A stretch of 64,000 bases of DNA from Halorubrum trapanicum. Lineage in GTDB: Archaea; Halobacteriota; Halobacteria; Halobacteriales; Haloferacaceae. A program made the position numbers and the translations under genes. The stretch covers positions 806,001 to 870,000 of the forward strand of contig NZ_AP017569.1 in the NCBI RefSeq assembly GCF_002355655.1, written 5' to 3'. The notes under the pieces were generated by a model that was not told where the DNA came from, made no database searches, and saw only the letters and a list, made by a program, of their open reading frames with translations. This document shows positions 23,122 to 53,574 of the stretch, one piece after another; positions within the stretch are counted from its first letter, which is position 1, and every line of letters starts with the position of its first letter.

Positions 23122-23420
23122 ATAAATCGCGGCTGAGGCGGTCGTCCGGCGATCGGCGGCGTCGACGATAGCGTGGAAGGTTCAGTCGGTTGTTTATAAG
23201 TAAGCGACACCGGATCGGCGGCGCACAGTTTCGGATTTTCAGCCGTTCGTTTATAAATGAATGTCCGGGGGTCGACCGCAAGCACTCGCAAATTCCCAGC
23301 CGCTCGTTTATAAGTGATAGATAGTAGATCAGCCGCGGACACTGCCAAGGCCCCAGCCGCTTACTTATAAATAGCTGCTAACGGCTCGGCGGCGATCTCC
23401 TCCAAAGCCCCAGTCGCGAG
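23115..23420 (+). repeat. Element A: 57-bp tandem unit array
   Basis: Box starts lie at 23115, 23193, 23250, 23307 and 23364; the last four are spaced exactly 57 bp and the first 78 bp. Each unit opens with YTTATAAR(T), often has GATCGG in the middle, and ends near CCAAAGCCCCAGCCGC(T). Units are diverged but in register. The same unit, also exactly 57 bp, recurs at 40.7-40.9 kb and 45.4-45.6 kb. No open frame persists through it. The first box contains the stop codon of the upstream gene. Confidence 0.85.
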
Positions 23421-23690
23421 GGCGGCGCACGCTCGCTGCGCTCCTCAGTCGGTCGCTCGTTTCACTCGCTCCCTCTCTGCGGTGCTTGCGTCGCCTGCGC
23501 CGCCCTCGCGACTGCCCCTTTGAGTCCCACCCCGCACCGCACGGCACGGCACCTCACGCCTCCCCAGCCTCGTCGCTCGCTTGGGGCTCCCTCCGGTCGC
23601 CCGCATCGCTCGCGACTCCCTCGCGCGGTGCTGACTCGCGGCCGCCTCCGGCGGCCGCTCGCAGGCACGCGCCACCGCAGTGTTTCCGTC
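23413..23690 (+). other. Element A: structured terminal block (inverted repeats)
   Basis: Directly continuing the last 57-bp unit is a perfect 17-bp stem, GTCGCGAGGGCGGCGCA at 23413-23429 pairing with 23496-23512, enclosing smaller GC-rich repeats. Conserved linkers follow: TGCCCCTTTGAGTCCC and CACGCCTCCCCAGCCTCGTCG. A hairpin at 23638-23658 has 9-bp arms (GCGGCCGCC). It shares order and sequence with blocks at 45567-45831 and (inverted) 40324-40728. The right-hand TTTATAAA seen in the other copies is missing here. The 612-bp stretch 23122-23733 contains no credible gene. Confidence 0.8.
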
Positions 23691-23733
23691 GCCGTCCCGG
23701 TGGCTTTTCGTCGTCGCTCGCGTGTCCCGACCC

Positions 23734-39163: not shown

Positions 39164-40216
39164 CTACCGCTCGATGACGCCCGTCGCGGTCGCGACCTCG
39201 ACCGCGGCCTCCTCGTTGATCCCGCCCTGGAGGATGGTGTAGCGGTCGCGGATCTCGTGGGCGCTCGTCAGGGCCGCGATCAGCTCCGCGTCGTCGATCC
39301 CCAGCTCGCCCGCGGTCGTGGGGGCGTCGAGCTCGTCGAGGGCGTCGCGGATGGCGCTCCACCGCCCGTTCTCGCCGCTGTGGAGGTACTCCGTCATGAT
39401 CGAGGCGACGCCGACCTGATGGCCGTGGAGCGCCTTGCCGGGCGCGATCCGGTCGAGCTGGTGGGAGATGAGATGCTCGGCGCCGGAGGCGGGCCGCGAG
39501 GAGCCGGCGATCGACATCGCGACCCCGGAGGAGACGAGCGCCTTCACGACGACCCACGCGGACTCCTCTAAGCCCGGGCGGATCATGTCGGCGTTCTCGA
39601 CGAGCAGCTCCGCTGTCATCTCCGAGAGCGCGCCCGCGTACTCGCTGTACTCGACGTTGCGCAGGCGGCGGGCGAGCCGCCAGTCCTTCACCGCGGTGTA
39701 GTTGGAGATGATGTCCGCACAGCCCGCGGTGGTGAGCCGCCACGGCGCCTCCGCGAGCAGCGTCGTGTCCGCGACGACGGCGAGCGGCGGGTCCGCGGCG
39801 ACCGAGTGACGGGTGTCGCCCTCGGGGATCGAGGAGCGCCCCGAGACGATGCCGTCGTGGGAGGCGACGGTCGGGACGGAGACGAAGCCGACGTCGAGGT
39901 GGTCGGCGGCCATCTTCGCGATGTCGATCGGCTTCCCGCCGCCGAGGGCGATCAGGTAGCCGGGGTCGACGGCCTCGGCCGTCGCCTTCAGCTCCTCGAC
40001 GGCGTCGAAGGAGGCCTCGTCGACGACGGCGGTCGCGGGGTCGTCGAACTGCGCCCGGACGCGGTCGCCGGCGATCTCGTTGGGGGTCGGGCTCGTCACG
40101 ATCAGCGGCCGCCCGGTGAGGTAGAGCTCGCCGACCGCCTCCCCGAGGTCGTCGATGACGTCGTGTCCCACGAGGACGTTCCGCGGGAGCTTGATCCACG
40201 TCGTCTTCTCGAACAT
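39164..40216 (-). CDS. egsA: sn-Glycerol-1-phosphate dehydrogenase
   Basis: 350 aa from ATG 40216 (MFEKTTWIKLPRNVLVGHDV). Dehydroquinate synthase-like/iron-containing ADH fold with IALGGGKPIDIAKMAADHL and VPTVASHDGIVSGRSSI for NAD(P) and substrate binding; the metal ligands are probably Asp in AGCADIISNYTAV and His in EHLISHQL and LHGHQVGVASI. It reduces dihydroxyacetone phosphate to sn-glycerol-1-phosphate, the backbone of archaeal ether lipids. Length is typical. Repeat element C lies about 108 bp upstream of the start. Confidence 0.95.
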   Translation of the reverse strand: MFEKTTWIKLPRNVLVGHDVIDDLGEAVGELYLTGRPLIVTSPTPNEIAGDRVRAQFDDPATAVVDEASFDAVEELKATAEAVDPGYLIALGGGKPIDIAKMAADHLDVGFVSVPTVASHDGIVSGRSSIPEGDTRHSVAADPPLAVVADTTLLAEAPWRLTTAGCADIISNYTAVKDWRLARRLRNVEYSEYAGALSEMTAELLVENADMIRPGLEESAWVVVKALVSSGVAMSIAGSSRPASGAEHLISHQLDRIAPGKALHGHQVGVASIMTEYLHSGENGRWSAIRDALDELDAPTTAGELGIDDAELIAALTSAHEIRDRYTILQGGINEEAAVEVATATGVIER

Positions 40217-40323
40217 GGCTCAGATACGCGACCGGAGGGTCTAGAAGATGCGGATTCTCGGACGGACAGCGGCGCCGCGGAGTCGGAGGTACCGCCGTAA
40301 ACGGGGTCGGAGTACGACGATTA

Positions 40324-40728
40324 TTTATAAATGAACGGCGGTGGCGTGCGCCGGTGAGCGGCCCGCAGGGCCGCGAACCGACCGCACGAGGGAGTCGGCC
40401 GGCCGGAGCGAAGCGGAGGCCGGCCGACGAGGCTGGGGAGGTGTGAGGTGCGGTCGCTGTAGGGGCGGGAGTCAAAGGGGCAGTCACCGGCGGCTCCGCC
40501 GCCGGCTGTCACCGGGCGACGCCCGGTTGCCCGAGGGACTGCGTCCCTCGCTGCCCGTGGCGCTACGCGCCACGCTGCCGCGAGGCGGCCGCAGGCGACG
40601 TGAGCACCGCGGGGAGTGAGCGAAGCGAACGACCGAGGAGCACAGCGAGCGACCGAGGAGCACAGCGAGCGACCGAGGAGCACAGCGAACGACCGAGGAG
40701 CACAGCGAGCGTGCGCCCGCCTCGCGGC
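40324..40728 (-). other. Element C: structured terminal block (inverted copy)
   Basis: The same block as at 23413-23690 and 45567-45831, on the opposite strand and longer. Stem 1 is 40712-40728 with 40577-40593 (17 bp, one mismatch), stem 2 is 40394-40404 with 40418-40428 (11 bp, GTCGGCCGGCC), and hairpin 3 is 40358-40374 (7-bp arms). Extra perfect hairpins (for example GTGGCGC/GCGCCAC and ACCGGGCG/CGCCCGGT) fill 40484-40576. It ends in TTTATAAAT at 40324-40332. No credible gene lies in 40217-40954. Confidence 0.8.
40631..40710. repeat. 20-bp tandem repeat inside element C
   Basis: Four copies of GACCGAGGAGCACAGCGAGC start at 40631, 40651, 40671 and 40691, two of them with GCGAAC instead of GCGAGC at the junction. 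They expand the loop of stem 1, where elements A and B have only one diverged equivalent. Confidence 0.9.
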
Positions 40729-40891
40729 TGGGGCTTTGGCGGTGTTCGCTGCCGATCTGTGATTGGATATTTATAAGCAAGCGGCTGGGGATTCGGCGGT
40801 GTTCACAGTCGATCCGCGGTCGATCGTTTATAAGTGAGCGGCTGGGGCTTCGGAGGTGTTCGCCGCCGCTCCGGTATCAACCACTTATAAA
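40721..40891 (-). repeat. Element C: 57-bp tandem unit array
   Basis: Read on the minus strand, three exact-length units start at 40891, 40834 and 40777. Each opens with YTTATAAR, contains GCGAACACC near position 30-38 or a close variant, and ends CCCCAGCCGC. The last unit runs directly into stem 1 of the block. The array begins about 60 bp beyond the lysE-like gene's stop. Confidence 0.88.
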
Positions 40892-40954
40892 TGAGCGCCC
40901 GCGACGCCGGGAGCCTCCGATCGCTTCGTCGCCGCCTCGGTCGCCCCGCGTCCC

Positions 40955-41668
40955 TCACACGACACCGGCGAGGAACGTTAGGGCGTCGACCGTCGTCGCC
41001 GCGTCGTAGAGGAAGTAGACGCCGAAGCCGGCGAGGACGACCGCGGAGCCGACCGCGACGATCGGCGCGAACGTCTCGATCCGGCGCTCGGCGGCGACGA
41101 GCCCGGTCGGGAAACCCACGATCCACGCCAACACCCCGAGGAAGAACCCGCCGATGAGCGCGGGCGAGCCGGTGGCGACGACGAACGTCCCCGCCAGCTC
41201 CGGCCCGACCACCGGTAGCCGGGAGAGCACGTCGAGCTCCCCCGGTCGCAACAGCCCGACTCCGACGGTCAGCCAGAACAGCACCTGATACGGGTTCGTT
41301 AAGGCGAGCACCAGCGCCTTGCGGAACCCCTTCCCCTCCGCGGCGATCGGCTCCTCGCCCGAGGTCGGGCGGAACGACGCGCGGGCGCCGTGGGCGGCGT
41401 CGACCGCGAAGTACAACATCAAGACGCCGCCGACCGCGACCATCGCGGCCCGGAGCAGCGGGAGCGACTCCACGACCGCGACGACGCCGACGTACGCGAG
41501 GACGAAGAATATCGCGTCGGCGGTCGCCGCGCCGAGCCCGGCTCGGAAGCCGGCGAGGCGCCCGCGGAGGACGGACTCCTCGGCAATCACCGCGTTCATC
41601 GGGCCGGGCGGCGCCGCGAGCGCCAGGCCGAAGACGACGCCCGCACCGAGCGTAACGAGGGTACTCAC
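40955..41668 (-). CDS. LysE family amino-acid exporter
   Basis: 237 aa from GTG 41668 (MSTLVTLGAGVVFGLALAAPPGPMN); upstream in-frame ATG codons would add basic, non-hydrophobic sequence. LysE/RhtB features are GLALAAPPGPMNAVIAEESVLRGRLAGFRAGLGAATAD and the six-helix layout, with ALTNPYQVLFWLTVG in the middle. It exports amino acids or related solutes across the cytoplasmic membrane; substrate unknown. Repeat element C begins just beyond its stop. Confidence 0.85.
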   Translation of the reverse strand: MSTLVTLGAGVVFGLALAAPPGPMNAVIAEESVLRGRLAGFRAGLGAATADAIFFVLAYVGVVAVVESLPLLRAAMVAVGGVLMLYFAVDAAHGARASFRPTSGEEPIAAEGKGFRKALVLALTNPYQVLFWLTVGVGLLRPGELDVLSRLPVVGPELAGTFVVATGSPALIGGFFLGVLAWIVGFPTGLVAAERRIETFAPIVAVGSAVVLAGFGVYFLYDAATTVDALTFLAGVV

Positions 41669-45306: not shown

Positions 45307-45403
45307 GGTAGCGTGTCGTTCCGGCGGGCTTGTGTACCCGTCGGTCCCGATAAGCTATCGACGTCGTTTCCGCGGCGAACTCACTCGAATAACCATTCAA
45401 TTA

Positions 45404-45574
45404 TTTATAAATAGTTGAGTACGGAGCGACGGCGAGCGCTCCCAGAGGCTCAGTCTCTCACTTATAAATAGTCGATCGCGGATCGGCAGAGAACACTGCC
45501 AAATCCCTAGCAACCAATTTATAAATGGTCGAGTACGGATCGACAGCGAACACCTCCAAAGCCCCAGTCGCGAG
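45404..45574 (+). repeat. Element B: 57-bp tandem unit array
   Basis: Three units start at 45404, 45461 and 45518, each exactly 57 bp and opening with YTTATAAAT followed by a GTCGA- or GTTGA-like tetramer. The third ends CCAAAGCCCCAGTCGC and continues into the block. The array starts 98 bp beyond the Get3-like gene's start codon, in the divergent or leader region of that gene. Confidence 0.88.
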
Positions 45575-45831
45575 GGCGGCGCACGCTCGCTGCGCTCCTC
45601 GTCACTCGCTTCGCTCGTTCCTGCGGTGCTTACGTCGCCTGCGCCGCCCTCGCGACTGCCCCTTTGAGTCCCGCCCCGCACCGCACAGCAACCGCGCCTC
45701 ACGCCTCCCCAGCCTCGTCGGTCGCCCTCCGCGTTGCTCCGGGCGACCGACTCCCTCGCGCGTGCTCCTCGCGGCCGCCGGGGGCGGCCGCTCGCAGGCA
45801 CGCGCCGCCGCACCGCCGTTTATTTATAAAG
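45567..45831 (+). other. Element B: structured terminal block (inverted repeats)
   Basis: Stem 1 (17 bp) is 45567-45583 with 45640-45656, identical in sequence to element A. Stem 2 is 45717-45727 with 45741-45751 (11 bp, GTCGGTCGCCC), and hairpin 3 is 45771-45791 (9-bp arms). The block ends TTTATAAAG at 45823-45831, only three bases from the aroA stop codon. Together with the array this fills 45307-45833, which holds no credible gene. Confidence 0.82.
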
Positions 45832-45833
45832 GA

Positions 45834-53062: not shown

Positions 53063-53383
53063 ATGGGCTACGACACGACGGCCTACGACGACGTCGAACC
53101 GCGCGCGCCCGGCATGTACTTCCTCCGTGACGCGCTCGACTGCGAGCACCTCGGCGTGACCGTCGTCGAGGCCGACGACGGCTGGGAGGGGATGGAACAC
53201 GATCACGCCGACGGCGACCACGAGGAGGTGTACGTGCTGCTCGGCGGCGAGGCGACGCTCACCGTCGACGGGGATGCCCTCGACCTCGATCCCGGTGACG
53301 CGGTCCGCGTCGACCCCGGATCCACCCGCGACCTCACCTTCTCGGCCGACGGCTCGAAGATGGTCATCGCCGGCGCACCCTGA
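53063..53383 (+). CDS. Small cupin-domain protein
   Basis: 106 aa from ATG 53063. A single cupin barrel: motif 1 is MEHDHADGDHEEVYVLLGGEATLTVDG, with His and Glu residues for metal binding; motif 2 is LDPGDAVRVDPGSTRDLT. No extra domain, so it may be a small-molecule-binding protein or simple isomerase. Its last 11 codons (SKMVIAGAP and stop) are the first copy of a 37-bp tandem array that runs 190 bp downstream. Confidence 0.8.
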   Translation: MGYDTTAYDDVEPRAPGMYFLRDALDCEHLGVTVVEADDGWEGMEHDHADGDHEEVYVLLGGEATLTVDGDALDLDPGDAVRVDPGSTRDLTFSADGSKMVIAGAP

Positions 53384-53574
53384 CGCCGGCTCGATGATGG
53401 TCATCGCCGGCGCACCCTGACGCCGGCTCGATGATAGTCATCGCCGGCGCACCCTGACGCCGGCTCGATGATAGTCATCGCCGGCGCACCCTGACGCCGG
53501 CTCGATGATAGTCATCGCCGGCGCACCCTGACGCCGGCTCGATGATAGTCATCGCCGGCGCACCCTGACGCCGG
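53354..53574. repeat. 37-bp tandem array seeded by the cupin gene's 3' end
   Basis: Six copies start at 53354, 53391, 53428, 53465, 53502 and 53539, exactly 37 bp apart. Each spans the sequence encoding the last cupin residues, the TGA stop and about 7 bp beyond, and contains the inverted repeat GATGATAGTCATC and the palindrome CGCCGGCG. Copies 3-6 are almost identical; copy 1 (inside the gene) has GAAGATGG instead of GATGATAG. There are no unique spacers, so it is not a CRISPR array. Confidence 0.95.

Follow-up and report, generated by a model that had tools for sequence, protein, structure and literature searches.

The window analysed here, a 64-kb stretch of Halorubrum trapanicum DNA, contains copy C of an interspersed repeat family, which carries a run of hairpins at a site where copies A and B of the same family have none. 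An earlier note on this DNA had described copy C as an inverted copy about 140 bp longer than its relatives and had read the extra length as a modular, growing structure. The description itself was borne out. Copy C is on the minus strand, copies A and B are on the plus strand, and copy C is ~140 bp longer than copy B; four adjacent perfect triloop hairpins, located by coordinates, directly follow the distal arm of stem 1, a 20-bp tandem repeat lies in the loop of stem 1, and copy C is flanked by a gene of the iron-containing alcohol dehydrogenase family, which fits egsA, and by a gene for a LysE translocator (Pfam).

Features in the window (coordinates; strand; description)
~23190-23700; plus; copy A (alignment and self-BLAST), without the hairpin insert at copy C's site
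39164-40216; minus; egsA-like gene, Fe-ADH_2 (Pfam), downstream of copy C
~40322-40897; minus; copy C (self-BLAST, alignment with copies A and B, own-genome matches; TTTATAA motifs bound the block)
40354-40378; minus; stem 3 hairpin (coordinates and alignment with copies A and B)
40394-40428; minus; stem 2 hairpin (coordinates and alignment with copies A and B)
40467-40480; minus; conserved linker CCCCTTTGAGTCCC, in copy C CCCCTTTGACTCCC
40483-40576; minus; outer double-hairpin unit (hairpins 40556-40574 and 40486-40506), with the inner unit interrupting it; an outer unit of this kind occurs alone in 12 sibling copies
40487-40505, 40511-40527, 40532-40550, 40556-40574; the four hairpins of the run, with 3-nt loops and perfect 7-8 bp arms
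40508-40552; minus; inner 45-bp double-hairpin unit, nested in the outer unit's linker (exact coordinates; 45-nt length step relative to 12 siblings)
40511-40527; minus; hairpin Hy, arms ACCGGGC/GCCCGGT
40532-40550; minus; hairpin Hx, arms GAGGGAC/GTCCCTC
40580-40600; minus; stem 1 distal (3') arm region, I1 inverted repeat
40624-40708; minus; 20-bp tandem repeat, 4.2 copies, 96% matches (Tandem Repeats Finder), in the stem 1 loop
40713-40733; minus; stem 1 proximal (5') arm region, I1 inverted repeat
40724-40897; minus; 5' array of three 57-bp units with TTATAA in each (inverted-repeat and tandem-repeat search)
40955-41641; minus; LysE-type translocator gene (Pfam), upstream of copy C
~45403-45833; plus; copy B (alignment and self-BLAST), without the hairpin insert at copy C's site

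The extra length of copy C consists mainly of 94 nt of hairpins and the tandem repeat, and the 20-bp repeat is a local duplication separate from the hairpin unit. When a run was defined by perfect arms of 7 or more and a 3-nt loop, the four hairpins were the sole run of at least two in the window, and the longest run in ten first-order Markov random windows, used as a control, was a single hairpin. Elsewhere in the window, a 37-bp unit repeated 6.1 times (53350-53574; 98% matches) starts at the 3' end of an apparent gene, and each unit holds CACCCTGACGC with a TGA.

The host element is a 168-copy family

A search of the 3.08-Mb genome that allowed one mismatch at most found the linker (CCCCTTTGAGTCC) at 168 places, 87 of them forward and 81 reverse, and a reversed-pattern control gave one match in the same genome. 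All 168 copies lie on the 2.84-Mb main contig, where 13.3 would have been expected on the other two contigs; the family has covarying stems and conserved unpaired motifs, and is absent from both smaller contigs. Gene contexts assigned with a simple ORF caller were convergent for 59 copies, tandem for 80 and divergent for 23, with 6 copies lacking two neighbours, and 24 copies overlap a called ORF, so that the family is mostly intergenic. Each host copy is built from a 5' array of 57-bp TTATAA units, a long stem 1, the linker and stems 2 and 3, and is often closed by a TATA-like motif; 57 is the commonest array spacing among the 168 copies, and the array next to the core has 1 to 7 TTATAA boxes, with none in 8 copies. 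When the near-identical copies at 2623048 and 2788519 were aligned for the ends of the element, identity continued past the core and similarity then decayed, so no clean ends or target duplication can be read from them.

Within the genus, the linker pattern was present in 51 of 52 genomes, with counts of 2 to 189 where present; genome G054 had zero matches though it is 99% complete, and its relatives have up to 189. Several other genera had high linker counts in a class-wide sample of 391 genomes, and a variant linker, CCCCTTTCAGTCC, was frequent in other haloarchaeal genera among the matches listed, sometimes as inverted pairs ~45 bp apart.

The hairpins form a separable unit that nests in its own kind

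Comparison of the 168 copies revealed that the site between the distal arm of stem 1 and the linker holds no hairpins in 155 copies, in which the arm abuts the linker, two hairpins in 12 and four in one, copy C; the earlier reading of the element as modular and variable in hairpin number therefore stands. The segment measures 59 nt in the 12 two-hairpin copies and 104 nt in copy C, a step of 45, and the inner unit of copy C is a 45-bp sequence, AGC-GAGGGAC(gca)GTCCCTC-GGGCA-ACCGGGC(gtc)GCCCGGT-GAC, that sits in the GGGCA linker separating the outer unit's two hairpins. The outer unit of copy C is 49 bp rather than 45 because its second hairpin is longer. Both the module and its nesting are thus directly observed, and a second nested case is present in the same genome at C1:2353973, where it follows stem 2 of a copy that lacks the linker. 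The note's proposed check, comparing hairpin number across related genomes, gave four-hairpin copies with the order of copy C in G063, G065, G015 and G022, to which G059 adds one copy in which two of the hairpins are perfect and the other two degenerate; the hairpins are therefore not an unrelated insertion confined to this strain. We caution that most detections of the nested inner unit came from a query that contained it, so the count of nested cases is biased towards that inner type. Odd-numbered runs also occur (two runs of three hairpins among the genome's own copies, several elsewhere), and each of those inspected had a mutated neighbour.

Hairpin modules are not restricted to this site. 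The same hairpin pair lies inverted in the stem 1 loop in 9 of 168 copies, and at least one double-hairpin module is present in 41 of 168, where sites B, C and D were counted by regular expressions that miss variants (site A: 12 in this way, 13 by inspection). Two further double-hairpin modules with their own linkers were noticed in the stem 1 loop, at sites B and C, in 19 and 10 of the 168 copies. Alignment of filled with empty sites, in family copies and in genes, gave no consistent target duplication. The notion of an element growing by its own hairpins did not hold, since these belong to a separable 45-bp unit that is found within protein genes too and that occupies further sites of the element, at one of which it is inverted.

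We consider it likely, with a probability of about 0.72, that the four hairpins of copy C represent a small palindromic unit that is mobile and is present here twice, in stacked copies; the unit would be composed of AGC, a triloop hairpin with GAGGGAC-type arms, a GGGCA linker, a second triloop hairpin with ACCGGGC-type arms, and GAC. The outer unit would have inserted first, between the distal arm of stem 1 and the conserved linker of the 168-copy repeat, and a second unit would then have entered the linker that separates the two hairpins of this outer unit. Such insertion would leave no target duplication, could take either orientation, and would affect palindromic repeats and protein genes alike; the likeliest route is movement as DNA via a folded single strand, by an enzyme or by repair template switching. 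We infer both this order of insertions and the movement as folded single-stranded DNA. An alternative interpretation is that the run was never mobile and expanded locally within copy C by replication slippage or template switching, as the adjoining 20-bp repeat (4.2 copies) clearly did by local duplication, but we consider this very improbable because the four hairpins differ in their arms, each arm class is found elsewhere in the genus, and the outer unit is common to 12 other copies.

Age of the hairpins at egsA

Orthologs of egsA were found in 52 of 52 genomes of the genus, and among the 30 egsA loci that were fetched the linker was present only in H. trapanicum and G004. The G004 copy has the linker, no hairpins and a short stem 1, the G067 locus is a deletion remnant of the element, and the G007 locus is an empty site with conserved flank, a pattern which argues that the element is older here in part of the genus. 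Judged from these sequences, the hairpins at the egsA locus itself are lineage-specific, and they are probably newer than the host element there. The host repeat would itself be mobile, to judge from its presence and absence at this one locus.

The unit inside protein genes

Hairpins in runs of two, four or six were found inside genes for PurD, 5-FTHF cyclo-ligase, histidine kinases, a DUF7095 protein and a CHY zinc-finger protein, and inside genes that, from their sequence, presumably encode a helicase-like protein. Since the unit is 15 codons long, the reading frame is kept, and an in-frame unit is predicted to add 15 amino acids, in peptides such as SEGRSPSGNRASPGD. In each of the 15 coding cases the AGC of the unit fell at codon phase 0, although orthologs recur among them and these are not 15 independent sites; instead of selection, the shared phase could reflect a preference for insertion after GAC or GGC, two codons that acidic proteins such as these use often.

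Length steps at orthologous positions mostly match whole units. PurD motif spacing at 30 loci was 99 nt in 27, 144 in one and 189 in one, with one unparsed, and the PurD protein has 470 aa in one genome and 455 in another, the insert being absent by alignment in 49; G059 gave no PurD match. The predicted peptide of the PurD insert includes SEAQRASSSEGQSPSGNRASPGDSRTQSGD. Cyclo-ligase motif spacing at 30 loci was 63 nt in 14, 66 in one, 108 in five, 120 in one, 153 in seven and 195 in one, with one unparsed, and the spacings of 120 and 195 nt, in two orthologs, do not fit whole units. The H. trapanicum gene has 63 nt, compared with 153 nt in the close relative G051; the outer unit stands alone in G042, and in G051 a matching outer unit holds an inner unit in its linker. 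The 45-nt steps and the in-frame insertions facing empty orthologous sites are direct observations, but the steps could also have arisen by recombination between existing units instead of movement.

The core of the inner unit was found in 32 stretches of an 84,980-species collection, of which 27 are from Halorubrum, three from one Halobacteriales metagenome assembly, one from Halorientalis and one from Halolamina. A single in-frame unit is present in Halorientalis marina, in what we take to be a hydantoinase B gene, and Halolamina salifodinae has one in inverted orientation, in which the reading frame is also open. Viral contigs gave no matches for the inner unit, the array motif or the core pattern, and phage records gave none. 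Neither the unit nor the 168-copy family was found described in the open-licence PubMed Central literature, which is not proof that either is unpublished.

Histidine kinases of Halorubrum, Haloferax and Salinigranum have repeated 15-residue VEHGST... units directly after the N box. In these genes the kinase's own codons make the first hairpin. The Halorubrum example comes from the genome studied here (C1:164992-168016), and the similar repeats of 15 residues that follow the N box in Haloferax lucentense and Salinigranum marinum belong to plasmid-borne kinases.

Base pairing and the choice between DNA and RNA

When the search pattern left the arms free, perfect complementarity was seen in 112 of the 128 first hairpins that were typed among the matches listed (typed hairpins being 128 of 150 listed strings, with 22 of G063 left out). 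Mismatches in unit hairpins comprised 24 G-U and 31 A-C pairs, without a wobble excess, in a count that covers all fetched loci and hairpins with at most two mismatches and includes some chance matches. Loops of the last hairpin at the insertion site were GAA (4), TTC (3), TCC (2), GGA (2) and AAA (2), in which GAA/TTC and TCC/GGA are two reverse-complement pairs. The lack of a G-U excess in the arms, together with loops in both orientations, favours a palindrome that is mobile at the DNA level over an RNA. For the host element, 155 copies of stem 1 gave 2490 Watson-Crick, 55 G-U and 50 A-C pairs at positions 1-18; 41 of the 55 G-U pairs are at one position, which belongs to a variant stem, and 24 of the 50 A-C pairs are at one position. 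A-C mismatches would be wobble pairs on the opposite strand, and the host element may have an RNA role, through an RNA from that strand.

These stem data bear on the interpretation of the entire element as a multicopy gene for a structured RNA, whose hairpins would be extra helices at a permissive apex, like rRNA expansion segments. Conservation is strong in the unpaired segments, the stems vary by compensating changes, positions 12-18 of stem 1 pair at 0.77 compared with 0.475 for shuffled partners, TATA-like TTTATAA motifs lie on both sides of the core, and A-C exceeds G-U in stem 1 on the listed strand outside one misaligned column. We nevertheless consider an RNA gene improbable as an account of the hairpins because Rfam gave no match at gathering score in the window and none at E 0.1 in six loci, the unit hairpins have no G-U excess, some loops occur in both orientations, and hairpin pairs lie in frame inside protein genes, where an RNA-gene role is inapplicable.

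Mobilisation and relation to known elements

A special case of the mobile-unit reading is that the hairpin pairs are degenerate IS200/IS605 ends, that is, minimal PATEs, moved by a Y1 transposase acting in trans. The two hairpins, the lack of target duplication and insertion into other mobile repeats are consistent with this, and Haloquadratum has 52-bp PATEs described as terminal-only (PMC3119063). However, the unit was found within 1.5 kb of none of 18 Y1_Tnp loci in 8 genomes, in a scan that covered Y1_Tnp loci, and in G016 the unit pattern matched 22 times although the genome gave no Y1_Tnp hit; we therefore regard this special case as rather unlikely.

The mobile palindromic unit shares properties with several described systems. 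Rickettsia palindromic elements are palindromic repeats of ~150 bp that lie in frame in unrelated protein genes (PMC10969869), and the unit resembles them in its in-frame position in protein genes (15/15 at phase 0, 45-nt steps in PurD and cyclo-ligase) but differs in being 45 bp long, with two triloop hairpins, self-nesting and haloarchaeal. The GC clusters of yeast mitochondria (GC42) and fungal double-hairpin elements are described as short, GC-rich and sporadic, stand-alone or merged at a homologous site, and present also in genes (PMC4478555, PMC2800124); the mitochondrial GC clusters differ from the unit in belonging to organelle DNA and in having a short direct repeat (target duplication) at their ends, whereas the unit has no consistent duplication. 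In Haloquadratum walsbyi, the SMR/PATE elements are reported to be transposase-free, to lack target duplication and to use other mobile elements as insertion sites; SMR-A elements, which measure ~110 bp and bear terminal inverted repeats, insert into palindromes, and PATEs have ends that resemble those of IS605 (PMC3119063). Like SMR-A, the unit lies inside another repeat without target duplication when filled and empty sites are compared, but it has 45 bp and two internal hairpins, and, unlike SMR/PATE as described in that source, it forms in-frame 15-codon units. REP sequences, GTAG- or CGTC-tagged, are described as short palindromes, many per genome and sometimes in genes (PMC3733652). In contrast to REP/RAYT systems, the unit ends in AGC and GAC without a GTAG tetranucleotide, has no linked RAYT by the same Y1_Tnp scan, and consists of paired hairpins with fixed linkers.

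Meaning for haloarchaeal proteins

In-frame palindromic elements are thus already known from Rickettsia and organelles, and the version described here is nested, 15 codons long, archaeal and genus-wide. We propose tentatively, at somewhat less than even odds, that a DNA element of nothing but two triloop hairpins, 45 bp or 15 codons in length, nests in the linker of its own kind and spreads in repeats and housekeeping proteins, in either orientation and with the frame preserved, as a routine source of protein change in Halorubrum. How such hairpins move would become a testable question in this tractable genus, in which the differences between related species at one and the same position of a gene are exactly 45 or 90 bp. 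Where SEGRSPSGNRASPGD-like stretches recur in the proteins of haloarchaea, they are likely to be insertions rather than signs of conserved function.
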